From the IMG/VR virus record IMGVR_UViG_3300018090_000057, positions 1 to 24,863 of that record: DNA of 24,863 nt; one strand, written 5' to 3'. The DNA comes from a virus. Positions 3,752 through 20,431 of this stretch are shown piece by piece. The translations under genes were made by a program, and so were the position numbers. Under the pieces are notes generated by a model. That model was not told the origin of the DNA, ran no database searches, and saw only the letters and a list, made by a program, of their open reading frames with translations. Within the stretch, counting starts at the first letter, position 1. The number at the start of each line of letters is the position of its first letter.

Positions 3752-4615
3752 TTAACCTCCATGAAGCTGCGCGACGCCATTGAGAACCAGAGCCCGATCG
3801 GCGACCACCGGCTCGCCCGCGCCGTGGGTAATTCCACTGTGTGCGTAATGAGCGTTGTAAAGCGGAGCGATCGGACCATAACCATCGGCCAGCGCGGCCT
3901 CGCTAATAGCAAGTCTGAGCCCGGCGTCCAACGGTCCAGGAGCCGCATCGAGTTGGTATTTCGCGATACCGCCGAGCGTGACCACATCGCGGGGAACCGG
4001 GGCGTAATCCAGATTCGGCGCAACTACAAACCATACCGAGTCGAGCCACGCGCGCGCCGGCTTGAAGAAATTCGCCGCCGCGACGATCTCTTGCACCGCG
4101 CCCGGCGTGACCGGCTGATTCGCGGCTAGATTGATCAGCAACCTGAACACCGCCCATCCCTCCCCCGCCGGCCAGGCCGTACCGCCCCAAAGCGCCTCGC
4201 CCTCCAGTATCGTCACACTCGTCCATCCGAGCGACGTCAGCGCCTGTCTAATCGCCCATGGGGTGCCCCGGTAGCGATGGAGCGGGATGGCCATCTCGAG
4301 CAGCGCGCGCTGCGCCGCGGCGCTGGTCGCGGACCCGGGGACCTCGCCACCGGGACCCGACAGAGTGTCGATGTCCGTGAGCGAGTCGATGTTGGTGAGC
4401 GCATCGATGCTTTCGGCAACCGGTGCAACGAGCTGCCACAGCGGCGACAGAACGTCGAACTGCCACGCCAGAAACGGCAGCGCGCCGTCGATTACCGATT
4501 CGATCCGGTAAATCAGAAGCGTCGAGAGATCGAGCGCTCCAAGCCGCCCAATCAGCACCAGCAGCGCTTGCGTGCGCGCGTCGTTGATCGATGGCGCGGG
4601 AGTCAGTTCAGCCAC
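3752..4615 (-). CDS. I: Baseplate/tail protein I (P2 gpI-like)
   Basis: The product is 287 aa. The N-terminal region has the gpI pattern (ALDLSTLLIYRI, then LPFLAWQFDV, residues about 28-55), followed by the RGTPWAIRQAL segment and a TILEGEALW strand. In P2-type baseplates gpI works with gpJ to form the wedge at the tail end. A Ser/Thr/Gly-rich stretch at residues about 72-100 (IDSLTDIDTLSGPGGEVPGS) looks like a loop insertion relative to shorter relatives. The start is GTG with AGGA six bases upstream. It overlaps the stop of a possible 49-codon gene by 8 bases. The position directly after gpJ is the standard P2 order. Confidence 0.9.
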   Translation of the reverse strand: MAELTPAPSINDARTQALLVLIGRLGALDLSTLLIYRIESVIDGALPFLAWQFDVLSPLWQLVAPVAESIDALTNIDSLTDIDTLSGPGGEVPGSATSAAAQRALLEMAIPLHRYRGTPWAIRQALTSLGWTSVTILEGEALWGGTAWPAGEGWAVFRLLINLAANQPVTPGAVQEIVAAANFFKPARAWLDSVWFVVAPNLDYAPVPRDVVTLGGIAKYQLDAAPGPLDAGLRLAISEAALADGYGPIAPLYNAHYAHSGITHGAGEPVVADRALVLNGVAQLHGG

Positions 4616-4757
4616 GGAGCGTCCTCACGAGGTCTGCGGCGCGCGCTTTGCGTCCCCATAGCGCGACGCGGGACGGGAGTTCGCAATGGCCATCCGCCGC
4701 GGCCCGAGCGCCCGCGTGGATTCCGTTTGCGCTGACCGATTCAATAGTGCGCGCCAT
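4608..4757 (-). CDS. Possible 49-aa small protein between J and I
   Basis: A reading frame of 49 codons fills the 147-base space between the end of J and the start of I. Its ATG lies four bases after the J stop, and its stop overlaps the gpI GTG by 8 bases. Third codon positions are about 70% G/C, consistent with coding but not proof. There is no convincing ribosome binding site, so translation would depend on coupling to J. In P2-like phages J and I usually adjoin directly, so the extra spacing needs some explanation. The product (begins MARTIESVSANG, basic C-terminus) has no motif I recognise. Confidence 0.35.
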   Translation of the reverse strand: MARTIESVSANGIHAGARAAADGHCELPSRVALWGRKARAADLVRTLRG

Positions 4758-4761
4758 GAGA

Positions 4762-5931
4762 TCAGGAATGCTCCGTCCCCTGGACGACGGACAGAGTAAT
4801 AGCCGTGCAGTTCGCCCACTGGCCGGCGGCAAGCTGCGTATAGGCCGGTGAGGTCAGGCTCACCTCGTACACCCCGGGGACCGACAACGCCGCGACTATC
4901 TGGCTCGGCACAATGTCCCGCTGAATCTTGGATGCGAGCGCAACCGCAAATTGCGCCGCCGCCTGGTTGGCCGCAGCCATCGTCGAAGTCGGATCCGCAT
5001 CCGAGTAGAGAGTAATGCTACCGGCGATTTGATAATCGATTTCGGAAACCGCCAGGACCGTCACGGTGTCGGTGAGCGGCCGAACCTTGTCCGCGCTGAG
5101 CACGCCGGCAACCTTGGAAAGCAGCGCGCCGCCCGCGATTCCCGCGTTGTTGGGCGCGGCGGCCGGCTGCACGATGATCGGTCCGGTGAGCACATAGACA
5201 TTGACCTGGCCGGGCGCGGGACTGAGCACGAGCGCGTCGGTAATCGAGGGATCGACTCCAAGCGCGAAGAACCGATAGGCGCCAGACGGACCCGCAACGC
5301 TGAACTCGTTGGGCGCGGCTTGGATCCGGGCGCGCAAATGATCGTCGGTCTCAGGCGCGCTGCCACCCGTGCTGGTCGTGGTGTTAGCGACGTTCGCGAT
5401 GAGCGCGTTCGGATTCAACTGTACATCGACTTGGCCAGGAAGGTAGCCGTTCGCGCCCGCCCCGGCCTGGACCGCGGTCGCAGTGACCGTCCCCGTTGTC
5501 GCGCCCGCCGGAATCACCAGCGTGCTGTTGGTTGCGAACGAAAACCGGCCGTCATTGGTCCCCACCAGCGTTCCGCCGGCGATCGTCACCGGCACCGTCA
5601 GCGCCGCTCCCAGAGTGAACTCGAGCGTCGTGACTGCCGGCTGCGCCGCCAGCCGCGTCACGCCCAGCAACTGGCCCAGGTAATCGAGCATCGGAAAGCT
5701 CGCGAACGCGAGCAGATTCTGCTGAGCCGCATACTGGATCGCGTTGCGAACCAGCGACTCGCGGTATGCATACAAATTAATCAGCAGGCGCTCGACCTGC
5801 GCCGGCTGCAGCGTGCGTCCCGCCGCCGCCTCAAAGGCCGCGATCATATCTGCCAGGATGAGATTCGGATCGAGGCCGTCGGCATCGTTCACGAAGACCG
5901 GCGGCGGAAGTGAGGGAATTCCTGCGGCCAT
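4762..5931 (-). CDS. J: Baseplate assembly protein J
   Basis: The product is 389 aa, close to the usual size for the P2 gpJ/Mu gp47 family. The N-terminus contains the family pattern DMIAAFEAAAGRTL, then YRESLVRNAIQYAAQQNLLAFA and LDYLGQLLGV (residues about 28-90). A beta-rich middle follows with repeated GTxTxTA strands and an ETDDHLRARI segment, then the C-terminal half typical of the family (VYVLTG, DTVTVLAV, CTAITLSV). It forms the wedge of the contractile baseplate together with W and I. The start has AAAGGA upstream at a suitable distance and lies 69 bases after the W stop. Confidence 0.93.
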   Translation of the reverse strand: MAAGIPSLPPPVFVNDADGLDPNLILADMIAAFEAAAGRTLQPAQVERLLINLYAYRESLVRNAIQYAAQQNLLAFASFPMLDYLGQLLGVTRLAAQPAVTTLEFTLGAALTVPVTIAGGTLVGTNDGRFSFATNSTLVIPAGATTGTVTATAVQAGAGANGYLPGQVDVQLNPNALIANVANTTTSTGGSAPETDDHLRARIQAAPNEFSVAGPSGAYRFFALGVDPSITDALVLSPAPGQVNVYVLTGPIIVQPAAAPNNAGIAGGALLSKVAGVLSADKVRPLTDTVTVLAVSEIDYQIAGSITLYSDADPTSTMAAANQAAAQFAVALASKIQRDIVPSQIVAALSVPGVYEVSLTSPAYTQLAAGQWANCTAITLSVVQGTEHS

Positions 5932-6000
5932 CAGATCATCCTTTCATCGTCGAGTTGGCGTGGCGGCGAGGACTGCCAAGACCTTGTGGATTGCGCCGCA

Positions 6001-6417
6001 CTAGCTCGCCATCGCCGGAATCGTCACGGTCGTGTTTTGTGGCGGCGAAGGCGCGCCGCCGAGCTTGAGCTGCCAGGTTACGGTGACGCTCAGGTGCGCC
6101 CCGCTTTGCGCCGACCCGTCGAGCACCGGGGCCACATTGATCGCGAGCGCCGTCACGCGCGGCTCCCACAGCGTAATCGCTGAGGTTAGTTCGCGGACGA
6201 TCGCGGGCAATGCCTCGTCGATCGGGTGGTCGATGTAACGCCAGATGTCGGAAGCGAAAGTGGGACGCAGCGGATCGCTGCCCTTCGGAGTGGTCAGAAT
6301 GATCGCGATGCACTGGTCCACATCGGCAATCCCCTGCACGACCTGCCCGATCGCGCCCAGCTTCAGGGACCAGTCTGCCGAAGTGATATCCGAAAGCGTT
6401 ACCGCATCCGTGCTCAC
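6001..6417 (-). CDS. W: Baseplate wedge protein W (gp25-like)
   Basis: The product is 138 aa with the gpW/T4 gp25 fold. The family signature includes DVDQCIAIILTTPKGSDPLR (residues about 33-52), FASDIWRYIDHPIDEA and an ITLWEPRV segment. These lysozyme-like-fold baseplate proteins connect the wedges to the central hub and are conserved in phages, T6SS (TssE) and R-type pyocins. The start is GTG at 6417, with GGAG about 12 bases upstream. A 56-base gap separates it from gene V. Confidence 0.92.
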   Translation of the reverse strand: MSTDAVTLSDITSADWSLKLGAIGQVVQGIADVDQCIAIILTTPKGSDPLRPTFASDIWRYIDHPIDEALPAIVRELTSAITLWEPRVTALAINVAPVLDGSAQSGAHLSVTVTWQLKLGGAPSPPQNTTVTIPAMAS

Positions 6418-6473
6418 TGTCTAGTTCTCCGGCTCGGCGATCCGTTCAATGCCTAATCGCATCGCGATTCGCC

Positions 6474-7067
6474 TCACGTCTGCGCAACCGTGGAAGAAGT
6501 CGGCAGCGGCGGCGAGATCGCCACGCCGCTCGGCGTGATTGTGACCTCGGAGCTCCCCGACGAAAGAGTGATCCCGGCGGGCGCGGCCACCGTCGCACTC
6601 ATCGCGCTCGCGCCCGCGAACGAAAACACGTGCAGCCCGCCGTCGTACTTTATGGCAGTGCCGTCATTGAAGTTGAGCGTGAGCACGTGCGCGCCGGAGT
6701 CGTACGTCACATCCGTGCCGTCCTGAAAGCTCAAGTTGAGCACGTGTGATCCGCGGTCGTACTCGAACGCGGTGTTGTCCTTGAATCCGAGGTGCCACTT
6801 GTCGGCACTGTCCACCGGCGGAGTGTCTGCAGCGGAATAGATAGCTCCGAGCACCGCGCCCGCCTCGTCACGAAGATCCATCAGGCAGACGACCTGTTCG
6901 CCCACGTCCGGTATCCAGTACGCCTTGTCATTCTGCGTCTTCGGCGACACCACCGGCAGCCAGTAGCTTTGCATCCGATCATAGTCGGGGAATATCACTC
7001 GCACTCGCGCGCCGGCAGTATCCTGCTCCTGTACCAACCCGACTCTGAATGGAGATACCGCGTTCAT
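6474..7067 (-). CDS. V: Baseplate spike protein V (P2 gpV / Mu gp45-like)
   Basis: The product is 197 aa. Residues about 7-85 form the OB-fold of the spike family (RVRVIFPDYD, WLPVVSP, WIPDVGEQVVCL, AGAVLGAIYS). Next come three perfect-length 19-residue repeats (95-151), each of the form F-x-D-x-T with a YDxGxHV element, and then a beta-helical tip (ITLSSGSSEVTITPSG). This trimeric needle pierces the outer membrane when the sheath contracts. The ATG overlaps the stop of the preceding gene (ATGA), implying translational coupling. I did not see the HxH iron-binding tip of P2 gpV; the end is Ser/Thr/Pro-rich instead. Confidence 0.92.
   Translation of the reverse strand: MNAVSPFRVGLVQEQDTAGARVRVIFPDYDRMQSYWLPVVSPKTQNDKAYWIPDVGEQVVCLMDLRDEAGAVLGAIYSAADTPPVDSADKWHLGFKDNTAFEYDRGSHVLNLSFQDGTDVTYDSGAHVLTLNFNDGTAIKYDGGLHVFSFAGASAMSATVAAPAGITLSSGSSEVTITPSGVAISPPLPTSSTVAQT
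6615..6785 (-). repeat. Three 19-codon tandem repeats in the spike gene
   Basis: Residues 95-113, 114-132 and 133-151 of the spike protein align without gaps: FKDNTAFEYDRGSHVLNLS, FQDGTDVTYDSGAHVLTLN and a third copy starting FNDGTAIKYDGGLHVF. Each repeat supplies two beta strands and a turn, as expected for the triple-stranded needle stem. The repeat number should set the needle length. Confidence 0.9.
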
Positions 7068-7366
7068 GGTACCAGCTCGAATGCCACGAGCCTGAGACTG
7101 CCGCTGGGGACGTCGTTCTGGTCAATCACGTCAAGCCATGCGACCCAGTCTCCGGCTGGACCGGCCGATGGCGTCACATAGACATAGTAATAGAGTCCAC
7201 TCTCCGCCTGGATCGTCGGTTGAGAGTTGACCTGCGTGATTCCGTTGGGGTCCCGAATCGATATCAGCGGTGCGCTTGGCGGATCGAAGGCCGCCGCCGG
7301 CTGTCCGGTCGTAAGCCGCCACGGAAGATACACCGCCTTGCCCGCCCGAATCTGCACCGGATTCAT
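7064..7366 (-). CDS. Small beta-rich phage protein, unknown
   Basis: The product is 100 aa, beginning MNPVQIRAGKAVYLPWRL. It has a SIRDPNG turn, a GLYYYVYVTP strand and a WVAWLDV strand, which suggests an Ig-like or jelly-roll fold as in small fibre/baseplate accessory proteins. It starts three bases after the stop of the 672-aa gene and overlaps the spike gene by ATGA, so it belongs to the same transcript. No catalytic motif is seen and the function is unknown. Confidence 0.65.
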   Translation of the reverse strand: MNPVQIRAGKAVYLPWRLTTGQPAAAFDPPSAPLISIRDPNGITQVNSQPTIQAESGLYYYVYVTPSAGPAGDWVAWLDVIDQNDVPSGSLRLVAFELVP

Positions 7367-7369
7367 CGT

Positions 7370-9388: not shown

Positions 9389-9401
9389 TGCGCCCTACCG
9401 C

Positions 9402-9842
9402 TTACTCACGCCACTTGATGTACCAATAAACCGACGCGCTATTCGTCGCGACATTCCACAGGACAATCGAACCCGCGGCCGGCACAATCAGCTCCTGTCC
9501 CTCCGACCAGGTCCAGATTACCCCCGCGCCAACCGTCGCCGGCAGCGCGATGTGCCGGAAAAAATGTGCGGGCGCGGTTGGCGCCGTGCCCCATGCAACC
9601 GCAGTCTCCGCAGTCGCAGCGGCATCCGCAGGATCCTCGGCCAATCCCAAGACCGGCGACGTAGGGGTCACCCCAATCGCCGCGGGACGGCCGACGCCGT
9701 ACGTGCTCGCAGTTGCGGCCCCGAGAAAGATGCCCACTTCCAGAATGACCGCGCGGTTGCTGCTGCCCGCGCGAAACTCCGCGGCTGGCGCGCTGCTCGT
9801 CGTAACCGTGCTGGGAGTGCTCAGAGAGTAGGTATTCGCCAT
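9402..9842 (-). CDS. Small phage structural protein, unknown
   Basis: The product is 146 aa, beginning MANTYSLSTPSTV. An AEFRAGSSNRAVILEVGIFL strand pair, a FFRHIALPA segment and a WTWSEGQELIVPAAGSIVLW C-terminal strand pair suggest an all-beta, probably trimer- or capsomer-associated protein. The pattern (strand, then GEELIVPA near the end) recalls decoration-like proteins of phages with large tails, but I cannot name the family. A good ribosome binding site (AAGGGGGAAG) precedes the ATG. The upstream 160-aa protein has a similar overall plan, so the two may be partners. Confidence 0.65.
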   Translation of the reverse strand: MANTYSLSTPSTVTTSSAPAAEFRAGSSNRAVILEVGIFLGAATASTYGVGRPAAIGVTPTSPVLGLAEDPADAAATAETAVAWGTAPTAPAHFFRHIALPATVGAGVIWTWSEGQELIVPAAGSIVLWNVATNSASVYWYIKWRE

Positions 9843-9859
9843 TCAGCTTCCCCCTTCGC

Positions 9860-10342
9860 TCAATCCTCGGAGAACAACACCGTCGCGTCCAAATTCACCG
9901 ACACAAGCCCCGAGATGGAGAGCAAGTCCGCATTTCCGGTCGCGCCGCCGTTGGCCAGCAACGTGATCGCATCGTCGGGGTCGATCGCGACCCAACCACC
10001 CATCCCGCCCGTCGCAGGCAACCCGATCGAAATTGGATAACTGGGGCCGCCGCTGCCCGCGGTAATCGAAGATGCGTCGGTGAAAACGGTCGTCGAGGCG
10101 GACGGGTTGTTTGGATTGCGCTTGACCGGCGTCGCGCTTGTTCCGCCCGTGCTGGCCGACGTCGTCCACTGCTTCACGCGCAGGATCACGCCGCCTGCCG
10201 AGGTCATGCGCGCAGCACCCATAATCGAGAAGATGTTGCATTGCGGCTGGTTCGAAACGGTCAGAAACCTCAGATGCGTTGATTCGGTCGCCGCAGTACT
10301 ATTGGTCGCGGCCTGGCGATTCACTGCATAAAAGAACGGCAT
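9860..10342 (-). CDS. Small phage structural protein, unknown
   Basis: The product is 160 aa, with an excellent ribosome binding site (GAGGAGG, six bases before ATG). It starts MPFFYAVNRQAATNSTAATE, and later segments (NIFSIMGAARMTSAGGVILR, AIDPDDAITLLANGG, SVNLDATVLFSED) indicate a beta-sandwich. It resembles the next protein downstream in size and composition. It sits in the accessory cassette between gpD and the spike gene, together with fibre-type genes. A virion-surface role is an inference from context only. Confidence 0.65.
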   Translation of the reverse strand: MPFFYAVNRQAATNSTAATESTHLRFLTVSNQPQCNIFSIMGAARMTSAGGVILRVKQWTTSASTGGTSATPVKRNPNNPSASTTVFTDASSITAGSGGPSYPISIGLPATGGMGGWVAIDPDDAITLLANGGATGNADLLSISGLVSVNLDATVLFSED

Positions 10343-10345
10343 TAG

Positions 10346-10564
10346 CTACCTCCTCATATGTTCTTCGGGAATCGCGGCCAGCGGAGGCGTGCCGTACTGA
10401 GTAATGCAGCGCCGGCAGACATAGAGTACGTGCGTCACCTCCCGCGTTACGAGGCCGCCGTCGCGCCCGCAGCTCGCACAGAAAACCCGATGCATGTTGC
10501 GCCCCAGCGGTCCGTCCGTTGAGGTTCGCGCGGGTTCGCTGAGCCTGCTGTGGCCGGCTTTCAT
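10346..10564 (-). CDS. Four-cysteine zinc-ribbon-like small protein
   Basis: The product is 72 aa. Cys29-x2-Cys32 and Cys50-x2-Cys53 are spaced like a zinc ribbon (FCASCGRDGG and YVCRRCITQYG). The ATG at 10564 overlaps the stop of the upstream membrane-peptide gene (ATGA). An alternative internal ATG at codon 24 would leave a 49-aa protein that still contains all four cysteines. Such proteins in phage late operons can be nucleic-acid-binding or structural knuckles. No further assignment is possible. The next gene starts after a four-base gap. Confidence 0.6.
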   Translation of the reverse strand: MKAGHSRLSEPARTSTDGPLGRNMHRVFCASCGRDGGLVTREVTHVLYVCRRCITQYGTPPLAAIPEEHMRR

Positions 10565-10743
10565 GACGCACTATGCTTTTTTCGGGGCGGCGCGGCCGCG
10601 CTGATTCGCGCGCCGATTCGCGGGCGGCGCAAGCCAAGCCGTTCCGGCCGGCGCGTCGCGAGATCGCACGCCACTCGGGCGAGCATCGCCGCGCAGAGCG
10701 CAGCCGCGCAGAGCGACACCAAAACCAGCAACCCTGCGCTCAT
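10561..10743 (-). CDS. Small single-pass membrane peptide
   Basis: The product is 60 aa. Residues 4-22 are a hydrophobic helix (GLLVLVSLCAAALCAAMLA), followed by a strongly basic tail rich in Arg/Lys. The ATG is one base after the stop of the upstream gene, and its own stop overlaps the following ATG. Size and layout fit a small phage membrane protein, such as a holin-like or spanin-like component, but there is no endolysin next to it. The assignment as lysis gene is therefore only a possibility. Confidence 0.5.
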   Translation of the reverse strand: MSAGLLVLVSLCAAALCAAMLARVACDLATRRPERLGLRRPRIGARISAAAPPRKKHSAS

Positions 10744-10744
10744 G

Positions 10745-11347
10745 TCAGCCCGCCGTGATCGTGAGCGCGGAGGTCACGCTCACGGTATAGCCGTTCTGGA
10801 CCGCCTGCGATGTGGAGAAGGCGGCCTCGCCGTACAGCGTACCCGTGGTTCCGCCGATCGTGTTGTTATCGGCCATGAACAACCCCTGAAGCGTGACCGA
10901 CGTGAGCATGTTGTAGGTGGCCTGCGATGCGCTGTTGTCGACGTATCCACCGGAAATCGTCCCCGCGGTCCATGCCTGGCGATTGGTCTGGCTGACATCG
11001 GTGCCCGCAATTTCGGTCCACCCGGAGTGCGACGCGATCGTGTCGGTTATCGCAAAGGTGGGCGCGGATGAGCCCTTGATGAGGCCGACGTACCATGCCG
11101 GCGAGGCGAGGCCGGTCTTGAATGTGGCGTCCAGCAGCTTGTTCACGCCTGCGGTCGTAACGAGGTTTTCCACCTCCTCGACCCAGACGATGCGCCGCTC
11201 GCGGTTGCGGCAGACGACTCGATGATGCGTTCGGATGCTCTTGGTACCCAGCCGATTAGAGGCCGCTTCGATTATCCGGCGCTGCCCTACGCCGATGTTC
11301 TGACTATCCAAGGGTTGCCTCCGATTAGGTAATTGTCGGACTGTCAT
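10745..11347 (-). CDS. Fibre-type beta protein, unknown function
   Basis: The product is 200 aa. The ATG at 11347 overlaps the gpD stop as ATGA and is preferred over a longer frame that would run into gpD. The N-terminus is basic (RQLPNRRQPLDS). The core has a VTTAGVNKLLDATFKTG segment, WYVGLIKGSS, then a long beta region ending GYTVSVTSALTITAG. The order (NLV, AGVNKLL, a VTLQGLFMAD-like strand, a final beta strand) parallels the 154-aa protein at 3286-3750. I recognise the general type from phage genomes but know no specific function. Confidence 0.7.
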   Translation of the reverse strand: MTVRQLPNRRQPLDSQNIGVGQRRIIEAASNRLGTKSIRTHHRVVCRNRERRIVWVEEVENLVTTAGVNKLLDATFKTGLASPAWYVGLIKGSSAPTFAITDTIASHSGWTEIAGTDVSQTNRQAWTAGTISGGYVDNSASQATYNMLTSVTLQGLFMADNNTIGGTTGTLYGEAAFSTSQAVQNGYTVSVTSALTITAG

Positions 11348-12351
11348 GACACCCGCCGCGCGTCGATTTCGGTCGTGTAACCGTGCGCTCGCGACAGGTG
11401 ATGCCGCGCCATCTCCACGAGGTATATTCCGTCGAAATGTCCCCATCCGCTGAGCAGCACATTAACCCCCGCAACCAGCCCCGCCGCGCCAGGAGTGACC
11501 AGCTGCACGGTCGTGAATAGCCGGTTGTCAAAATGCAGCGCGGCTTGCGCCTTCAGCATCGCCTCCTGACCGTTCTCGCACCGCGTCACGACCTTCCGCG
11601 TATCCCCGGTCGGCATCGCGGCTTCGGACTCAACTTGAGCCAGGAGAAGTTGCTTGCCATCGGGGTCGAAGTAGGTCACCTGCGATGCGGCGAATATGCG
11701 GCGCGTGCGGTTGCGGAAGAGGAATCGTTCGGTGCCGGTTCGTGAAATCGTGGCGACCGGCGGCGCCGATTCCAGCGCCGACACCGCATAGAAGACCATC
11801 GTGCTGCCGCGCACCGTGAAGTCGTAGCCATGTTCATTGGCGAGGCGTTTTAGAAATGAGAGGTCGGTTTCGCGGCGCTGCGTGATTCGTTCGAAGACGA
11901 GCGACTCCACTTCAGGCGCCGCAAAAAGAACCAGTCCGTACTTCGCCGCGATTGATTCGGCTATCTCGAGCAGGCTCTGATTCTCATAGCCGACGCTGTT
12001 TTCGGTGCGCATCGGCGGCGTGATGTAAACGGCCAGGCATCCCAGCCGAAACACATCGGGCGGGCCGCTCAGCACGAGATCATCCACCTGGAAATCCCCG
12101 CAAGGCAGCAACTCCCCGCCGTGATATCCAATGAGAAGGTTGAGCTGGTCGCCGAGCGCCGGATACCACACCCCCTGCCAGAGTTTCTCGCGGTCCTCGA
12201 ACTCGATCTCGACCTCGCCCGACGCACTCGCCAGCCGATCGCAATAACTAATCGACAGCACCATCTGCGATACGTCGCCGGATATATTCACGCCCGCGTA
12301 GGTAAGTACCCACTGGGGCGAAGGGACGGGAAACGCCGCGAGAGCACTCAT
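11344..12351 (-). CDS. D: Phage late control / tail hub protein D
   Basis: The product is 335 aa, typical for P2 gpD/Mu gp44-type hub proteins. The ATG at 12351 overlaps the gpX stop (ATGA); a longer frame upstream would overlap X by about 50 bases. Recognisable segments include the hub N-terminal VEIEFEDREKLW and GDQLNLLIGYHG, the YENQSLLEIAESIAAKYGL helix, and the RETDLSFLKRLANEHGYDF signature (residues about 160-180). The C-terminal region matches the tail/VgrG-like barrel. It forms the trimeric hub joining the tube to the spike, so it should contact gpV directly. Confidence 0.92.
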   Translation of the reverse strand: MSALAAFPVPSPQWVLTYAGVNISGDVSQMVLSISYCDRLASASGEVEIEFEDREKLWQGVWYPALGDQLNLLIGYHGGELLPCGDFQVDDLVLSGPPDVFRLGCLAVYITPPMRTENSVGYENQSLLEIAESIAAKYGLVLFAAPEVESLVFERITQRRETDLSFLKRLANEHGYDFTVRGSTMVFYAVSALESAPPVATISRTGTERFLFRNRTRRIFAASQVTYFDPDGKQLLLAQVESEAAMPTGDTRKVVTRCENGQEAMLKAQAALHFDNRLFTTVQLVTPGAAGLVAGVNVLLSGWGHFDGIYLVEMARHHLSRAHGYTTEIDARRVS

Positions 12352-12611
12352 AAGCCTTGCGCCTGCGCCGCGGAGACCGGCGACCTCGATGCGGTCTTCC
12401 ACGGCGGCAGTCCGGTACTGGCTACCGCGCTGACGCTGAGGACCCGAATGAGAATCACCAGCCCCGACTCGAATACGGGCTCAATCGGCACATCCGGATT
12501 GGCCATGATGATTGGGCTGTATTTGGCCGCATCGCCATAGTATCGCCACGCGAGCAGGTCCCATCGCTCGCCCGCGGCTGTCACATGAACTATGAATTGC
12601 GCCGAGGCCAT
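12348..12611 (-). CDS. X: Tail protein X (LysM-like)
   Basis: The product is 87 aa. The start is the ATG at 12611, sharing its A with the stop of U (TGATG); a GTG one codon earlier is possible. The sequence shows the gpX/LysM pattern: GERWDLLAWRYYGDAAKY, then IIMANPD and a VILIRV strand. In P2-type tails gpX is a small hub-associated protein thought to bind peptidoglycan or help hub assembly. U-X-D is the P2 order, which supports the assignment. Confidence 0.9.
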   Translation of the reverse strand: MASAQFIVHVTAAGERWDLLAWRYYGDAAKYSPIIMANPDVPIEPVFESGLVILIRVLSVSAVASTGLPPWKTASRSPVSAAQAQGL

Positions 12612-13225
12612 CACCGGGCCGCGCTCCGAGTGATTACGGAAATCGGTACGTCGTCAGGCAGAAGGTTCGGAGTTATCGCACCGGCCGGCGGCGCATTGCT
12701 GAGAATCGCCGTCACTCCCTGGGGCGAAAGCGGCGCGAGAGGCGTGGACGAGGAAGCCCCGGTCGCGGCCGAGCCGCTCGCCGCGGCGCCGTTCACCAGC
12801 GCGAGCGGGGTGAAGGGCGCAAGCGGCGGCGCGCTCGGATCCAGCTCCGCGCCGGGCGCGAACTCCTTGAGCTCGAGCCTTGCCCCGACCGCGATCGCCG
12901 TCCCGTTCGCGCCGAGTTGCGTTGACCGCGTCGCGATCGACTCGATCACGAAATACCCCCACAAGGTGCCATCGCCCATGACCAGGGGCAGCGCCTGATG
13001 CGCATTGGCTGCGGCGCGAAGCGCGGCGAGCCCGGATGTGGGGTTGGAAAATGATGCGTGGAAAATGAGATCGAGCACCAGCCGTTCAAGGCCGTTGGAG
13101 AGCCACTGGAGCCGCGGCGGCGCCTCGATTACGTCGTGCTCTGCGTAATCATAACGGCGCTCCGCCTCGAGATGCTCTGGCGAGCCGACAACTTGAAACT
13201 TTATTTCTCCCAGCTCAGCAAACAT
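12611..13225 (-). CDS. U: Tail terminator-type protein U (P2 gpU-like)
   Basis: The product is 204 aa. Family-like segments are FAELGEIKFQVV at the start, YDYAEHDVIEAPPRLQWL, a middle LPLVMGDGTLWGYFVIESI and a final strand KEFAPGAE (through residue about 135). The last 65 residues are an Ala/Ser/Pro-rich extension (NGAAASGSAATGASSST), longer than the approximately 160-aa P2 protein. It normally follows the tape measure gene, but here the gene upstream is the RRM gene. A GGGAG ribosome binding site lies about 9 bases upstream. Confidence 0.85.
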   Translation of the reverse strand: MFAELGEIKFQVVGSPEHLEAERRYDYAEHDVIEAPPRLQWLSNGLERLVLDLIFHASFSNPTSGLAALRAAANAHQALPLVMGDGTLWGYFVIESIATRSTQLGANGTAIAVGARLELKEFAPGAELDPSAPPLAPFTPLALVNGAAASGSAATGASSSTPLAPLSPQGVTAILSNAPPAGAITPNLLPDDVPISVITRSAAR

Positions 13226-13298: not shown

Positions 13299-13589
13299 TC
13301 ACTCACGGCCCGCCACCGCGGAGCTGCGTTCGCGCGCGCGCCGGGCCGACGTGGCCGCTTCAACGCGCATCGGACGGCCGCCCAGTTCCTTGCCGTTGAG
13401 CTCGCGAATTGCCGCGGCGGCGTCTTCCTCGCGCGCCATCTCGATGAATCCGAATCCGCGCGAGCGGCCGTCAAAGCGGTCGCGGACGACTTCGGCACGC
13501 TCCACGGTTCCGATCTGTGCGAACGCGTCACGCAACGCGGTATCGTCCAGCGAGAAGCTGAGGTTGCCCACAAACAGGCGCGCGCTCAT
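13299..13589 (-). CDS. Single-RRM RNA-binding protein in the tail operon
   Basis: The product is 96 aa. It is a complete RNA recognition motif: RNP2 LFVGNL at residues 5-10, RNP1 RGFGFIEM at 44-51, and a normal beta-alpha-beta-beta-alpha-beta spacing, followed by a basic tail (residues about 81-96: SARRARERSS). These aromatic residues normally contact single-stranded RNA. The ATG overlaps the stop of the -1-frame chaperone product (ATGA at 13589-13586), so it is tightly coupled to the tail genes rather than being a loose insertion. In P2/Mu-type order this slot belongs to the tape measure gene. Bacterial single-RRM proteins are known as free-standing host genes (for example cyanobacterial Rbp). 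One inside a phage structural operon is unusual. Confidence 0.93.
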   Translation of the reverse strand: MSARLFVGNLSFSLDDTALRDAFAQIGTVERAEVVRDRFDGRSRGFGFIEMAREEDAAAAIRELNGKELGGRPMRVEAATSARRARERSSAVAGRE

Positions 13590-14037
13590 CTGCCGTTCCC
13601 TCCGCGGGATTCGCCGAGCGTGCGGAGGTACTCAGCGACCGCGCCGATCCAATAGTCCATTTCCGCAAACTCCATCGCCTCTAGCTCGTGAACCGAGAAT
13701 CCGAACCGGACGAGGCCTGCGAAGTTTGCAGCGGAGGGCCCTGAAAATTTTCGCCGATTACCTCGGCCTGGAGGGCAAGAACGTCACCCAGCTCCATCGC
13801 GAGCACGTCCTCGTACGCGATTCGGCGCCCGTCGATTTCCGCCAGCTCCGCGATCAGCGCGAACACCACCGCGGTCGGATCTCCGCCCGCCGCCGCCCGC
13901 TGCGCCCGCATCAGGTCCCGCCCATAGCCCTTGCGCACCGCGGCCGCCGCACCGGACGGAAGCTCGATCGTTCTGGATTCCGCCCCCGCATCGGCGCCAC
14001 CGATCTTCACTCCATTCACGGTCAGATCCTCGGCCAT
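13586..14037 (-). CDS. Tail assembly chaperone, -1 frameshift product
   Basis: Slippage at 13744-13750 joins the first 98 codons of the short chaperone to a -1-frame extension of 52 codons, giving a protein of about 150 aa that ends at TGA 13588-13586. The extension begins SGPSAANFAGLVRFGFS and contains HELEAMEFAEMDYWIGAV, a pattern like the E' (T) extension of P2/Mu/lambda-type chaperones (acidic, then a helix with Trp). Its stop overlaps the ATG of the RRM gene. The product is predicted from the sequence; no frame-specific evidence is available. Confidence 0.8.
13681..14037 (-). CDS. Tail assembly chaperone, short (zero-frame) product
   Basis: The product is 118 aa, of the gpE / Mu gp41-type tail chaperone family. 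The ATG at 14037 is chosen over a GTG six codons earlier because AGGAGA sits at the right distance before it. The sequence begins MAEDLTVNGVKIGG and has an IELPSGAAAAVRKGYGRDLM helix region. It ends ALQAEVIGENFQGPPLQ plus about 15 residues. These proteins coat the tape measure protein during tail assembly and are normally made in two forms by -1 frameshifting. The slippery site lies at codons 97-98. Confidence 0.85.
   Translation of the reverse strand: MAEDLTVNGVKIGGADAGAESRTIELPSGAAAAVRKGYGRDLMRAQRAAAGGDPTAVVFALIAELAEIDGRRIAYEDVLAMELGDVLALQAEVIGENFQGPPLQTSQASSGSDSRFTS
13744..13750 (-). other. -1 ribosomal frameshift slippery heptamer A AAT TTT
   Basis: In the coding direction, codons GAA AAT TTT CAG (residues 96-99 of the short chaperone) contain A AAT TTT, which fits the X XXY YYZ rule exactly. 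After slipping back one base, both tRNAs re-pair with AAA and TTT. The -1 frame is then open for 52 codons and has a plausible family-like extension. No strong stem-loop was seen directly downstream. Confidence 0.8.
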
Positions 14038-14140
14038 TGCAGTTCTCCTACTCACTTGACTCCGGCAGCCCGGAATTATGCTTCCCCGCCCCTGCTACGT
14101 TCATGGGCAAAGCCCCAAATCGGCACTCGGCCCGATCGCA

Positions 14141-14659
14141 TCACCCGCCGAGGTCGGTGCGGAATTTCGCGAGTTGATCGACGCCGCCCACCACGTACAC
14201 GTTCGCAAAGACGTCGTAGAGGTAGATTTGAACGCCGGCCACATAAAGCTCGGCGTGATAAACGCTCACGCTGGAGGTGGTCTCGACCATCTGATGCTGC
14301 TTGAACGCCGGGCTCCCCGCGTCCTTGAACACCCCGGTCATCAGGTAGATGACTGGCAGCTCCGCGCTGCGCCCCTGGCTCGTGTACTGTTCGAGACTGC
14401 CCCGCACCTGGAAGTAATGGCTCTGGAAGGGGCTCGCTGCCAGGGTGAGCGTCTCGGAATCGAACGACGCCCATTTGATTCGCGACTCGAGCTTCTCGAC
14501 CCCGGCCCACAGCTCCGCGGTGCCCGCCATCCCGAGACCCTTGTAGTCGATCATGCGATGGCGCGGCTGCGGTATGTCGATTTCCTCGGCGCGGCCGAGC
14601 AGTCCGACCCCGTCGATATATATATTGGCGTTAGTCAGCGAGTTGATTTGAATATTCAT
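14141..14659 (-). CDS. Major tail tube protein (P2 FII-like)
   Basis: The product is 172 aa, the usual length of the FII family. It begins MNIQINSLTNANIYIDGV and has the family segment EEIDIPQPRHRMIDYKGLG (residues about 26-44), then ELWAGVEKLESRIKW. It forms the rigid inner tube of the contractile tail. The start has GAGAGG about six bases upstream, and the gene follows the sheath gene by 14 bases, as in P2. Confidence 0.95.
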   Translation of the reverse strand: MNIQINSLTNANIYIDGVGLLGRAEEIDIPQPRHRMIDYKGLGMAGTAELWAGVEKLESRIKWASFDSETLTLAASPFQSHYFQVRGSLEQYTSQGRSAELPVIYLMTGVFKDAGSPAFKQHQMVETTSSVSVYHAELYVAGVQIYLYDVFANVYVVGGVDQLAKFRTDLGG

Positions 14660-14673
14660 CTTGACCTCTCAGT

Positions 14674-16212
14674 TCAGTCAGTGGCGCTGGCTGCGGCCGG
14701 GATTGCACTGGTCTGGCCCAGTTGCTGGAGCAGGGTCGTATCGATGAAGGTCTGGAAGGTGATCCGTTCCGCGGGAGGCGGCGGCATCACGTCGATATCG
14801 AATACCAACTGGCCGGCCGCGACCTGGTTTGGCGGGTTCTCGGCCGGGTTGTAGCTGGCCGCGCCGGCGACCAATGCCCCCCGCTGGATCAGCGTCCGGA
14901 TGAAGGCATTCGCGCTCGCCAGTATCGCCGTGATCAGTGCGTTGGAGATCGGCTGATCGATGAACTGGAGCATCGCGAGTTCGACCGACTCTTCGATTAC
15001 ATCCATGGTGCGGCGCACGCTGATGAAATTGTCCGGGGCGGTGCTCGACGGATACTCGGCCGACCGGTTGCCCCACACGCGAAGCCCCGTCCCGAACGCA
15101 TTGAAGACCGTCAGGATCCCCTGCGCGTTGAGGTTGTTGAGGTCCGAGACGGGATCCAGGATCGACGCGTAGATTGCGACATCCGGTCCGAGGATGCCAT
15201 TCACCTGGGTATTCGACGGAGACCACCAGTAGCCCTGCGCGAGGTCCTTGGCCGCCATCGCACCCGCGACCCATTGCGAGTACGGCCCGACCGAGTTGGC
15301 GTTGAATGCCGCGGTGAGCGGAATCCCCGACGCACTCAGCGTAACGCCCGTGGGTACCAATCCCGAATCGTAAAACGTCTCCTGCGGATAGCAGAGGATC
15401 GCACGGTTGCTCGACGTGTCGAATGCGTTGTTGGCGGCCGAGCGGTTGGCGATCGCGGTTGCAACCGGCGTCCCGGGCGGCGAGTCGATGAGCGCGATGG
15501 CGCGCAGCGTATTCGCCATCGTGGTCACCGCGCCCGCCACGTCGGCATTCTGTGAGTATCCGGGGGCGATCAGAATCTTCGGGAAGAAGCCCATCGTGCC
15601 GTAAGTGATCTGGAGCGCCTGCAGGCCCGTATATACGCCGCTCGTGACAGCCCCGATAATGTCGGCGTCCTGCACTTTGGTCGGATCTGCGTAATTGAAT
15701 GAGATTGAAACCGCAGCGCCGGTCGCCAGCGCGCCGCCCTGCCTCGCAGTAATCACTCCGTTCAACGGGTCGAGCGTATAGTCAGTGCTGGATGAGTAGG
15801 TAGTCGTTCCGGCTGAGTTCTTGACCACGACATTCGACACGCCCATGTGTCCGAGGTTGAGCACTTGAGCACCCGAGGCCGGGAAGCTCATCGCCTGGCT
15901 CGTTACCGCGGTGAAGTGCCGGGTCGGATCGAACACATTGACTACTATCGCCTGGCCCGCGCCCTGCTTCTGTATGGCGGCCAGCGCGTAAGGGATCGTG
16001 TATCCCTGAACCAGCGGGCCGAAGTTGGCCGCATCGATCGCGGAACTGACGAGCGTCGGAGAGTTGACCGCCGGCGCGGCGGCCGGCGATTGAACCGCCC
16101 ACGCCGGCGCTGTGCCAACCAGGCCAATCACCGCGGACTTAACCACCGTGACCGGGGCCGGGCCGACTGGCACTTCGATCACTTCAACTCCGTGCAGGAA
16201 GGATGCAGGCAT
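14674..16212 (-). CDS. Contractile tail sheath protein (FI/gpL-like) with inserted domain
   Basis: The product is 512 aa, typical for contractile sheaths and larger than P2 FI (about 396). It has the N-terminal arm typical of sheaths (ASFLHGVEVIEVPVGPAPV, then VIGLVGTAPAW). The conserved C-terminal half has IYASILDPVSDLNNLNAQGI, a WGNRSAEYP segment, and the helix around FISVRRTMDVIEESVELAML. Residues about 118-177 carry a separate beta module (STDYTLDPLNGVITARQGG, then SISFNYADP) that is also found at the C-terminus of the adjacent gp37-like protein. The sheath contracts to drive the tube through the cell envelope. Ribosome binding site: GAGGTG. Confidence 0.95.
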   Translation of the reverse strand: MPASFLHGVEVIEVPVGPAPVTVVKSAVIGLVGTAPAWAVQSPAAAPAVNSPTLVSSAIDAANFGPLVQGYTIPYALAAIQKQGAGQAIVVNVFDPTRHFTAVTSQAMSFPASGAQVLNLGHMGVSNVVVKNSAGTTTYSSSTDYTLDPLNGVITARQGGALATGAAVSISFNYADPTKVQDADIIGAVTSGVYTGLQALQITYGTMGFFPKILIAPGYSQNADVAGAVTTMANTLRAIALIDSPPGTPVATAIANRSAANNAFDTSSNRAILCYPQETFYDSGLVPTGVTLSASGIPLTAAFNANSVGPYSQWVAGAMAAKDLAQGYWWSPSNTQVNGILGPDVAIYASILDPVSDLNNLNAQGILTVFNAFGTGLRVWGNRSAEYPSSTAPDNFISVRRTMDVIEESVELAMLQFIDQPISNALITAILASANAFIRTLIQRGALVAGAASYNPAENPPNQVAAGQLVFDIDVMPPPPAERITFQTFIDTTLLQQLGQTSAIPAAASATD

Positions 16213-16286: not shown

Positions 16287-17108
16287 TCAATTGGTCGGCG
16301 CGCTTTGCCCCGCGGACGCGATCACCTGATCGGCGTAGCTGTACGCGATCCCGACGGTCTCGCCCGGCCCCGTTGCGCCGCCGGTCAGCGCCGTGATAAT
16401 CCCGTTCACCGCATCGACTGCGAAGTCGGTTCCCTCGGCCAGCGGCGCTCCGCCCGGGCCGGTCACCTGCACGGCGAACACGTTTCCATTGGGAAGCTGA
16501 ATCTTTCCGGTTGCATCGAACGTGTATGACGCGGCGCCGACCGTGATCGAAGTCACGCCGCCCTCTTCCATCGCGATTCCCCGGATAAAGAGTGGGAATC
16601 CTTCTTGCCCCGATGCTTCCAGCGCCAGGGTCGAGAGCGCAAACGTGATTGCATAAATCCACACCCCGCCCTGGCGGTCTCGCTCGACGAACTTCTCGCT
16701 CTTTGGGAACATCTTGCGGCATCCGGGAACCCGAAACCCGGTGAGCGCGGCGCGCACCGCCTCGATCGCCGCGTAGGCGCCCGGACTCGGCCCGCTCGCA
16801 TCCCCGCCGTAGCTCCATCCGAGATCGCGCATCATCAGGGTGACCTCGAATTCGAGCTTCCGTTCCTGGATGATCGCCGCGGTGTCGAGTTGTTCGCCGT
16901 AGGCCGCGCCCTTGTACTGGACGAGTGCGGCGCCGATGCGATGCGTCATGCGGTAGGACTCGGGGCGATCGGGATAGTGGGCGATTTCGATCGAATTTAT
17001 CTGCGAGCCGAGTTGGGCGAGAATCGCGCTCTCGATGGTCGCGATATCGATCGGCGTCGGCGGGGAAAATGTTGCGCCGTCAAAGGGCGCATCCAGCATC
17101 GCGCCCAT
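16287..17108 (-). CDS. gp37-like tail completion protein with fused C-terminal beta domain
   Basis: The product is 273 aa. Residues about 15-165 match the Mu gp37-type family (IATIESAILAQLGSQIN, then EFEVTLMMRDLGW and AIEAVRAALTGF), which acts near the neck or tail start. Residues about 205-262 are an extra beta module (GTDFAVDAVNGIITALTGG, then GIAYSYAD) very similar to the insert in the sheath encoded downstream. Mu gp37 is shorter, so this looks like a fusion. The start follows the gp36 stop by three bases. The tail-sheath gene begins 74 bases further on. Confidence 0.8.
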   Translation of the reverse strand: MGAMLDAPFDGATFSPPTPIDIATIESAILAQLGSQINSIEIAHYPDRPESYRMTHRIGAALVQYKGAAYGEQLDTAAIIQERKLEFEVTLMMRDLGWSYGGDASGPSPGAYAAIEAVRAALTGFRVPGCRKMFPKSEKFVERDRQGGVWIYAITFALSTLALEASGQEGFPLFIRGIAMEEGGVTSITVGAASYTFDATGKIQLPNGNVFAVQVTGPGGAPLAEGTDFAVDAVNGIITALTGGATGPGETVGIAYSYADQVIASAGQSAPTN

Positions 17109-17111
17109 CGC

Positions 17112-17546
17112 CTAGTACCCTTTGAGCGAGCCGCGGCTGAACACGCGGCCCGGTCCCTCGACCGCTTCGGCTGCGCCTGCGACCGGCGGTTCATGGTTGT
17201 CCGCGGCCAGCCCCAGGGTCAGCTCGCCCGAGGCGACCTTCCCCAGCATCGCGATTGCGTCATCGTACCTGCGGCGCGCGTCCTCGAGGTCGTGCAGCGG
17301 ACGCAGCACCTGCAGGCGGTACATCGCGATATCGGTCGCAAGCCGGTTCAGCACCGCCGGAGGATCGGCCAGCGGCAACGCGAATCGTCCTTCGAGATAA
17401 CCATCGATCTCCGCCGACGCATCGGAGAGCGCCTGCTGAAGCGGCGCGGTATCGATAGTAACCGCAGTCGGATCCTCATTAGTCAGTTGAACGAGATCGC
17501 GATTTGGATACCGATTGATCATGTCCTGCGGACTCGCGTAACTCAC
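17112..17546 (-). CDS. gp36-like head-tail connector protein (DUF1320 type)
   Basis: The product is 144 aa. It begins MSYASPQDMINRYPNRDLVQ, has the helix pair DASAEIDGYLEGRFALPLADP (residues about 42-62) and ends with an RRRYDDAIAMLGKVASGEL segment. This arrangement is characteristic of the Mu gp36 family, placed between major head and tail genes. It likely sits at the head-tail neck. The start lies 180 bases after the end of gene T, a larger gap than usual in this operon, and that gap holds two strong hairpins. Confidence 0.88.
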   Translation of the reverse strand: MSYASPQDMINRYPNRDLVQLTNEDPTAVTIDTAPLQQALSDASAEIDGYLEGRFALPLADPPAVLNRLATDIAMYRLQVLRPLHDLEDARRRYDDAIAMLGKVASGELTLGLAADNHEPPVAGAAEAVEGPGRVFSRGSLKGY

Positions 17547-17726: not shown

Positions 17727-18674
17727 TCACGCCAGGTACTCGCTGACGATCAGATCGGCGCTGTTGCGCCAGATGTTCGTGGTCGGAACGCTCGCGCTCG
17801 CGCCGGTACCGACCATGAATTCGGAATTCAGGAGCTGGCGCGCTACTTCCTCGAGCGCGGGCGGAACCACCAGGTACACGCCCTGGCGGCCCGACAGCGC
17901 GCCGAACGGCTGCCCCGCATCGGTCTTGAACGACCTCATCGCCGAGCGCGCCGCGCCATAGTTGGCGGGATTGCTCAAATCGGTGTTGCTCGCGTAGCAG
18001 AGCTGCCACAGCCCGACGCCCGTGTTCGCGCGCCCATCGACGCCGTAACGGAACTCGCGCCGGTTGAACACGCCCTCATCGGTGAGCGAACTCATCCGCG
18101 TCACCGCGTACTCGCGGCGTAGCTGGAAGATGAACGGCCGAATCGCCCGCGATGCGTCGATCAGGAACCAGTAGGCGCCCGAACCGCTGGTGTTGATGTT
18201 CGCCGCGGTCGTGTCTCCGGTCTCATTCATCAGGCCCACCGGGTGGCTGGCGGAGAAAAACGGCTGGCCGTCGAAGCACAGGACGCCCGAGGGGCTGGTG
18301 ACCGCCTGCTTGATCATCGCGAACAACATCATGTCGGGATGCACCTTGGTGTCCCATCCGAGCTGCTCGATGATCGGCTCGTAGACTCCGTAGGTGTCGT
18401 CCTCGATGTCGTTGCGATCGATCGCGACGGTGTCCTCGAAGTTCTTGTTCACGATCGTGTAGGTGTGCGCCTCGAGCGCCTGGATGACGCGGTCGCCGAG
18501 CCACTCGCGGAACTTGGTGGTGCGGCCGAGCCACGGGTAGGTGGTCTGCCGCGAGCCCGAGCGCACGATGGTCGCGATCTGCTCGTAGTAGGAGGGCGGC
18601 TTCTCGAAGCCGCGCTGAAAGACGACGTCGAAGCCGGTGAAAAGTGCGGTCAGATTTGCAGCGCTGATCTCCAT
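17727..18674 (-). CDS. T: Major head (capsid) protein, Mu gpT-like
   Basis: The product is 315 aa, close to Mu gpT. Family signatures are LFTGFDVVFQRGFE (residues about 11-24), TYPWLGRTTKFREWLGDRV, VNKNFEDTVAIDRNDIEDD, and the C-terminal LVVPPALEEVARQLLNS segment followed by NIWRNSADLIVSEYLA. It forms the icosahedral capsid shell. The ATG has GGAAGGTG in a good position. It is the most highly expressed gene expected in the block, and the hairpins just downstream may relate to that. Confidence 0.95.
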   Translation of the reverse strand: MEISAANLTALFTGFDVVFQRGFEKPPSYYEQIATIVRSGSRQTTYPWLGRTTKFREWLGDRVIQALEAHTYTIVNKNFEDTVAIDRNDIEDDTYGVYEPIIEQLGWDTKVHPDMMLFAMIKQAVTSPSGVLCFDGQPFFSASHPVGLMNETGDTTAANINTSGSGAYWFLIDASRAIRPFIFQLRREYAVTRMSSLTDEGVFNRREFRYGVDGRANTGVGLWQLCYASNTDLSNPANYGAARSAMRSFKTDAGQPFGALSGRQGVYLVVPPALEEVARQLLNSEFMVGTGASASVPTTNIWRNSADLIVSEYLA

Positions 18675-18715: not shown

Positions 18716-19198
18716 TCAGGCGGCTGCCGTGGATTGATGCCAGAAGTCGACCCACACCTGGCCGCTCGGATCGATCGCAACCACCTGCCCGGCGGCCGCG
18801 TTCTGCTGCACGCCCGCACCGCTCTGGCGATCGGTCGCGCTGACCGTGTGATCGTCGATTGCGAAGCACACCGAACCTATCTGCGCCGCGGTTATCGAGC
18901 TGTCCTGGTCGAACATGAACACGCCCTTGCGCACCACGATCGACAAAGCGCCTGCGGCGCCGCCCGAATTGATCGCGTCCTGTCCCGGCATGCCGTTGTG
19001 GACGCGCTCGGTGCGCCCGACGATCTTCAGCGCATTGGCGGTCGTGGTGGTCGCCGATGCGGGCACCGCGTTGCCGTTCGTGTTGAGCGCCGCCATCGAT
19101 CCCAGATAGACGTTGGTGTTCGCCTCGACCGGGTAGACGCGCATCCGGCCGCCGTCGGCCATCTCGGGCGTGTTGCGTGAGCTGGTCAAAGCCGCCAT
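18716..19198 (-). CDS. Capsid decoration (cement)-like protein
   Basis: The product is 160 aa, placed between the protease and the major head gene, where Mu-like phages carry a capsid-stabilising protein. It contains YLGSMAALNTNGNAVPASA, IVVRKGVFMFD and a final VDFWHQS segment, giving a beta-rich, surface-protein-like profile. The ATG has AAAGGTGAAAAA upstream. The decoration assignment is by position and general appearance, not by a firm motif. Confidence 0.65.
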   Translation of the reverse strand: MAALTSSRNTPEMADGGRMRVYPVEANTNVYLGSMAALNTNGNAVPASATTTTANALKIVGRTERVHNGMPGQDAINSGGAAGALSIVVRKGVFMFDQDSSITAAQIGSVCFAIDDHTVSATDRQSGAGVQQNAAAGQVVAIDPSGQVWVDFWHQSTAAA

Positions 19199-19258: not shown

Positions 19259-20431
19259 TTAGCGGTCGTGCTCGGTGGTTGTGCGCTCGAAGCGCAGAAA
19301 ATCGGCGCGGCCCATCTTGCGCTTGAGGAAGTCGCCGTGGCTGACCCCGAGTTGCGCGCAGATTGCGACCTCGGTGGTATTGAGCTGCGACGCCGCCGCC
19401 GCGATTCGGCTCGGCGGCTCTCCTGCGAACGCCGGCTCGCTTCCCAGAATCGACGGCTGCTTGGCGACGAAGGCCTGGAAGCCGCGCGGGTCCGCGCTGC
19501 AATAGGTGGTGGCCCACTCGCGTTGCGCCGGAACGAGCTTGCCCGCGCGAATCGCGTCGTCCACCGCGTGCGCGGCGCGCTCGCGGGCGCGGTCGGCCTT
19601 GAGCGCGTTGAGTTCGGTGAGCGCCTTCTGGAACTCGGCGATCCCGACATATCGCGCCGGATCGGCCACGTGCGCGTGCGCCGCTTCATCGCGGTCCGCG
19701 CCGGCCGCCTTCTCGGCAAGTTCCCGAACGCCGGCGAGGATCTCGTCATTCGATGCGTCGGCGGCGAGTCCGAGCAGATCCCTAAGCTTGCCCAGGAATT
19801 CTTCCATCATTTCGCCCTCGTGATTCGCGGCGCTGGTGTCCGCGGCCGCGATTGCGGTCAGATAAAGATTCGGATTGTTGGTCAGCCCCGCGCGCAAAAG
19901 CCGGGTCACTTTTCCGCTTGCCGGATCGAACTGGAACACGGGCGAGACGTATCGATACTCATGAACGCGAATCGCCGCGGCCGCGCGCGCGGTCCACTCG
20001 ACCCGGCCCCAAATCGCGCCGCCGCGCGCTTGCAGCTCCGTGATCCATCCGGCCGCCGGCGCGGGACGCCCTGCGGGTGCGGCAAAATCCGTCGCATGGT
20101 CGTAATCGACCGGGATACCCGCCTCCAGGCGCAGCGCGAGCGTGGCCGCGATCACCGTCTCAGGATCGTCGAGGCGAAACGGACCGCGCCCGTCGCGCCC
20201 GTGGAACACTCCGGCGGGCAAAAGCTCGATCCAGTCGGGCACCTCGGCGTCGCCCGCGCCAGCGGCATCGCTCGCCGCGCGCATCGCAGGCGGCGTCCGG
20301 AGCGAGCCGAGCGCCTGCGCGCGGACTTCCAAATCGGCGCTCGCGCCGGCGGGCGCGGCCAGAGCCGAACGATTCAATTTGCCCGGGTTCGCTCCCTGGT
20401 CTCCGCCGGCGCGTGATGTGAGCGCATCCAT
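19259..20431 (-). CDS. Phage head protease/scaffold, Mu gpI-like
   Basis: The product is 390 aa. Residues about 65-200 match the Mu I protease family (DWIELLPAGVFHGRDGRGPF, then IPVDYDHATDF, WGRVEWTARAAAAI and HEYRYVSPVFQFDPASGKV). The C-terminal third is helical and charged, as expected for the scaffold part (the Z-like product in Mu). It cuts scaffold and capsid proteins during head maturation. The ATG at 20431 has no clear ribosome binding site; an internal ATG near codon 49 is possible. Normally portal and head-assembly genes precede it, but here host sequence does. Confidence 0.85.
   Translation of the reverse strand: MDALTSRAGGDQGANPGKLNRSALAAPAGASADLEVRAQALGSLRTPPAMRAASDAAGAGDAEVPDWIELLPAGVFHGRDGRGPFRLDDPETVIAATLALRLEAGIPVDYDHATDFAAPAGRPAPAAGWITELQARGGAIWGRVEWTARAAAAIRVHEYRYVSPVFQFDPASGKVTRLLRAGLTNNPNLYLTAIAAADTSAANHEGEMMEEFLGKLRDLLGLAADASNDEILAGVRELAEKAAGADRDEAAHAHVADPARYVGIAEFQKALTELNALKADRARERAAHAVDDAIRAGKLVPAQREWATTYCSADPRGFQAFVAKQPSILGSEPAFAGEPPSRIAAAASQLNTTEVAICAQLGVSHGDFLKRKMGRADFLRFERTTTEHDR

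Follow-up and report, generated by a model that had tools for sequence, protein, structure and literature searches.

The window analyzed here, a stretch of 24,863 bases that makes up the whole of a virus record, carries a Mu-like structural operon on its minus strand. The genes and features of this operon are given below in order of descending coordinates, with the evidence for each assignment.

19259..20431 (-), prohead protease of the Mu gpI family (Mu-like_Pro, 2.1e-76)
18716..19198 (-), putative decoration protein (position and synteny)
17727..18674 (-), major capsid protein of the Mu gpT family (Mu-like_gpT, 4e-97)
17112..17546 (-), g36, conserved head-tail gene (synteny across relatives)
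16287..17108 (-), g37, conserved head-tail gene (synteny across relatives)
14674..16212 (-), contractile tail sheath (Phage_sheath_1, 5.1e-19; phrog_23, 1.9e-93)
14141..14659 (-), tail tube, FII-like (Phage_tube, 3.2e-40)
13681..14055 (-), tail assembly chaperone, zero-frame product, E / gp41-like (phrog_21320, 9.4e-22; weak Phage_TAC_7/15 matches; synteny, following the tube)
13744..13750 (-), slippery heptamer A AAT TTT in the zero frame of the chaperone (sequence; relatives)
13586..13750 (-), E', the -1 frame extension of the chaperone (sequence; its TGA stop overlaps the RRM ATG)
13299..13589 (-), RRM protein of 96 aa (Pfam RRM_1, AlphaFold RRM fold, family conservation)
12611..13225 (-), gpU-like tail protein (Phage_P2_GpU, 1.8e-26)
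12348..12614 (-), gpX-like tail protein (Phage_tail_X, 4.1e-12)
11344..12402 (-), gpD-like baseplate hub (Phage_GPD, 8e-8; phrog_52, 4.6e-77)
3752..7067 (-), gpV, gpW, gpJ and gpI-like baseplate genes (named by position; order common to relatives)

The region immediately upstream of the protease (20766-21572 and 21660-24797) encodes an ABC transporter of host type and a PT-repeat protein. An ABC transporter is found at the same position in L009, L013, L036, L089 and L093, and in L093 and L089 it lies in the portal-protease interval. Between gpD and gpV there is a block of six ORFs (7064-11446) that is absent in most relatives and includes a 672-aa repeat-rich protein, a homologue of which is present in L012.

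The 96-aa ORF between the frameshifted chaperone and gpU is a canonical single-domain RRM. It matches RRM_1 (PF00076) over residues 5-74 with an E-value of 1.5e-23 and 82.9 bits, against a gathering cut-off of 20.7, and it has both aromatic RNA-contact motifs, RNP2 as LFVGNL and RNP1 as RGFGFIEM. The AlphaFold model (mean pLDDT 82.6) shows the beta-alpha-beta-beta-alpha-beta arrangement, and structure matches in the PDB include the RRMs of HuR, TIA-1 and RBM39 (E about 1e-9). A preliminary description of this DNA had placed a complete RRM with both motifs between the chaperone and gpU, with its ATG overlapping the stop of the -1 frame product. The ORF, the Pfam match and the model confirm the former, and the sequence confirms the latter, as the TGA of E' lies at 13588-13586 on the minus strand. 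RNA binding would be the natural reading of the intact RNP motifs. RRMs may alternatively have single-stranded DNA or proteins as ligands.

Relatives were gathered by a search with the tail tube, which yielded 80 viral contigs, and by a scan of GTDB genomes, which placed the element in Ca. Binatota, a group of uncultured soil bacteria. A search of the viral contigs with gpU gave no match. An RRM homologue lies between the chaperone and gpU in most of the tube-search contigs that span the site, and in 17 Ca. Binatota genomes the gene is found between the chaperone and either the tape measure or gpU; the conserved order that had been proposed as a check in related genomes was thus found. The exact chaperone-RRM-gpU order of the window is shared by eight relatives (L002, L003, L006, L008, L009, L010, L085, and L086), which excludes an assembly join in the window, a possibility that had been put forward as evidence against the whole idea. 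More generally, we rejected a one-off insertion or assembly join because the order recurs across dozens of independent contigs, far beyond chance.

The RRMs of the element form a lineage of their own. In a tree, 57 distinct element RRMs group apart from 59 host RRMs with a branch support of 97/96; the only exception is L304, which has a long branch. Across 24 diverged members, R44, G45 and F48 are invariant, and aromatic residues are retained at position 2 of RNP2 and position 3 of RNP1. The median dN/dS of the RRM gene is 0.083, second lowest of the genes compared after that of the tube, with values of 0.101 for the capsid, 0.117 for the sheath, 0.19 for the chaperone and 0.23 for gpU. As this low ratio is seen despite the highest mean synonymous divergence among the genes compared, the constraint appears to act on the protein. 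Conserved order, a single lineage and purifying selection together support the earlier suggestion that the RRM gene was adopted by the phage operon.

Relatives that have a tape measure at this place and no RRM gene had been named as a finding that would speak against such an adoption. They do exist, as the RRM gene is absent from the operon in four genomes (G006, G007, G046, and G054) and in the L032 group, yet the tree favors secondary loss. The capsid-sheath-tube tree requires two moves of the tape measure and four changes of RRM state; the latter are compatible with one gain and three losses, and secondary loss of the RRM would be the best explanation, given this tree, for the relatives that lack it. 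Since about three lineages apparently lost the gene and kept the rest of the operon, the RRM is not strictly essential.

Other RRM genes and element copies were encountered during this analysis. A further RRM gene, at L304:6422-6745 (G013:C16), belongs to a second prophage region, with TerL-like and Mu Gam-like genes nearby; it is not part of a tail operon, and its long branch falls close to the RRMs of the element. Three viral contigs of 155-470 kb (L378, L385, and L386) carry RRM genes with none of the element's tail genes detected nearby. G012 has two copies of the element; the second (L270, G012:C15) is diverged and likewise has an RRM after the chaperone, at the contig end.

The preliminary description also held that the RRM gene occupies the place of the tape measure, and this claim was only partly borne out. 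In most relatives the RRM gene is followed by a tape-measure-like protein of 270-430 aa with a shared C-terminal motif, and then by gpU. In other prophages, proteins of 650-700 aa end in the same motif, and two of these proteins have matches to PhageMin_Tail and to tape-measure PHROGs. In L387 (record G149, 43,860 bases), a chaperone with A AAT TTT is followed by the RRM, a full-length tape measure of 634 aa (PhageMin_Tail, 2.3e-25) and gpU. G149 also encodes a MuA-like transposase (phrog_310, 1.2e-92), a MuB-like protein and Mu Gam, and therefore the RRM coexists with an intact tape measure in a transposable phage, although the long branch of this phage makes its place in the tree unsure. We found no tape-measure-like ORF in the window, and the clade to which it belongs (nine entries, support 95 in the capsid-sheath-tube tree) has no tape measure at this locus. 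In G001 and G002, whose chaperone-RRM-gpU layout is that of the window, a protein with the tape-measure motif is encoded immediately upstream of the genes for large terminase and portal. The tape-measure-like gene of this clade has moved to the terminase-portal cluster and was not replaced by the RRM; for the window itself, the relocation is deduced from G001 and G002 because its own tape measure is off the contig. A different rearrangement is seen at L012:960-3359, where chaperone and tape measure have jointly shifted to a position between the capsid and g36 and the RRM is still found between the tube and gpU. Tape measures are recognized as long proteins with a profile match, and the RRM protein, with 96 aa, matches no PHROG family. 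Replacement of the tape measure by the RRM was rejected, as tape-measure-like genes are present beside the RRM or in the packaging cluster.

The frameshift site of the chaperone is kept also where the RRM is absent. The heptamer A AAT TTY is kept in 57 of the 60 relatives listed, and the lowest synonymous divergence of the operon falls at about codons 96-124 of the chaperone, its dual-coded end. The overlap of stop and start codons, the conservation of which had been named as support for a real system, is unique to the window, and in relatives the chaperone and RRM genes are separated by 3-82 nt; a conserved ATGA coupling was accordingly rejected. Relatives without the RRM retain the same A AAT TTT site and the E' extension, so that the RRM appears dispensable for the frameshift signal. 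In L012 the chaperone is located about 5 kb from the RRM and the slippery site is still present.

Gene transfer agents (GTAs, viriforms) are defined by particle genes derived from caudoviricetes, by endogenization, often at multiple loci, and by vertical inheritance with host co-diversification; functionally, they package mostly host DNA, their own locus not being packageable, and deliver DNA to other cells (PMC9662315). The present element has caudoviricete-derived capsid, protease, portal, large terminase and tail genes. In many genomes the portal and terminase genes are on another contig or kilobases away from the capsid genes, an observation limited by the fragmentation of these metagenome-assembled genomes. 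The portal was detected in 25 of 41 family genomes, often apart from the capsid cluster, and in several genomes the portal is separated from the protease by genes of host type (methyltransferase, NHL-repeat protein, ABC transporter). We rejected the possibility that portal and terminase are missing, as both are located upstream or on other contigs. The capsid gene occurs in 30 of 148 genomes of the class Binatia, nearly always as a single copy. Distances of capsid, sheath, tube and RRM correlate with those of rpoB (Spearman 0.45-0.58, with 0-5 of 2,000 permutations as high), and nearest neighbors mostly agree in this distance-based comparison. PF02914 (MuA) had no match beside the element: of the 26 element genomes, 23 lacked any match and three had it on a different contig. 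This negative is soft, since the profile also missed the MuA of the distant phage G149. By these genomic criteria, the element resembles a GTA-like cluster of Mu origin that is inherited vertically; it differs from known GTAs in its contractile Mu-type tail and its RRM gene.

The closest known relatives of the operon are the Mu-like and P2-like tail operons (sheath, tube, E/E' chaperone, tape measure, U, X, and D), with which it shares gene families and order, the -1 frameshifted chaperone and, from Mu, the gpT capsid, gpI protease and portal. The element departs from these in the RRM gene inserted between chaperone and tape measure, and in tape-measure-like proteins that are mostly only 270-430 aa long or, in the clade of the window, encoded at another locus. 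Bacterial single-RRM proteins of the Rbp type resemble the element RRM in size, RNP1/RNP2 and fold, whereas the element RRM is a distinct lineage within a tail operon, with the host paralogues of the same genomes separate from it. RRMs of giant eukaryotic viruses have the same fold and were the best viral structure matches, but these viruses are unrelated and no phage tail operon is known to be involved. In agreement with the preliminary description, which knew of no phage system of this type, we found no PHROGs family matching the window RRM, no RRM match at E 1e-3 among 50,697 phage records, and no paper in the open-licence literature that treats GTAs of Binatota or RRMs in tail operons.

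Our preferred reading, to which we assign a probability of about one half, is that a canonical single-domain RRM gene was gained once by a Mu-like, contractile-tailed phage lineage of Ca. Binatota and stayed among the tail genes once the element had become a vertically inherited GTA-like cluster, its product binding RNA and acting on late mRNA. The protein would bind RNA and, with less confidence, its target would be the element's own late mRNA, which we infer from the position of the gene. It may thereby affect the stability or translation of the chaperone, tape measure and gpU set, as a post-transcriptional regulator or chaperone of late mRNA rather than as a tape measure or required frameshift factor. 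An Rfam search for an RNA target gave no match, and no coding stretches with strongly reduced synonymous change were found except the dual-coded frameshift region and, to a lesser extent, parts of the major capsid gene. In one clade (L046, L036, L048 and their relatives), the leader upstream of the RRM is 60-66 nt long and contains an SD-like GGTGA and partial GTGACTA repeats.

Alternatively, the RRM fold may have been recruited to bind protein, as a chaperone of gpU or of the shortened tape measure, and any binding of RNA would then be incidental. We regard this structural or assembly role as possible if rather unlikely. The RRM gene has the chaperone on one side and the tape measure or gpU on the other, and its protein-level constraint is strong and comparable to that of structural genes. 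The tape-measure-like proteins of RRM-bearing elements are hydrophilic and Arg-rich, and several of those from RRM-less elements have hydrophobic stretches: a 19-aa hydropathy peak above 1.8 was seen in 0 of 29 of the former and 6 of 9 of the latter, although this amounts to only three independent contrasts and is not significant. However, RRMs that bind only protein have often lost the RNA-contact residues, which are conserved here; moreover, the RRM remains with gpU where the tape measure departs (window clade, L012), and a full-length tape measure stands alongside the RRM in L387. The same hydrophilic, basic proteins, together with the presence of an RNA-binding domain within a capsid and tail operon, could be taken to indicate that RNA is loaded into the particle by the RRM, or that the RRM marks an RNA or RNP cargo, but the genomes encode terminase and portal, so that DNA packaging is the default, and we consider this highly improbable. 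We give a similarly slim chance to the idea that the RRM and the basic tape-measure-like protein handle RNA in the tail, either as RNA or RNP cargo that is carried or delivered or as an aid to tail assembly.

The position of the RRM immediately near a slippery site that is itself conserved had suggested that the protein might bind the E/E' slippery region and tune the -1 frameshift. This proposal is weakened by the RRM-less relatives, which keep the site and the extension, and by L012, in which RRM and site are separated; a required role in frameshifting is therefore unlikely, and we consider action at this region very doubtful. It is somewhat easier to imagine, and still unlikely, that the RRM is a passenger (moron) gene with a host-directed role, for example as a cold or stress RNA chaperone, that merely rides in the operon. 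Hosts have 1-6 RRM genes each, and the gene was repeatedly lost with the element intact. Against this, one exact slot has been held across deep divergence and rearrangements, the element lineage is separate from host RRMs, and the gene is on the same strand, within the operon and tightly spaced.

With the adoption of the RRM by the phage operon, the tail genes of a phage-derived element include an RNA-binding domain that has been conserved throughout a bacterial family, and the findings suggest that Ca. Binatota has a GTA-like system not yet described. The natural rearrangements of the operon, in which the tape measure would have moved twice and the RRM been lost about three times, provide ready-made comparisons for RRM function. 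If the RRM does control late-gene expression, tail assembly would be regulated post-transcriptionally in a way that is new.
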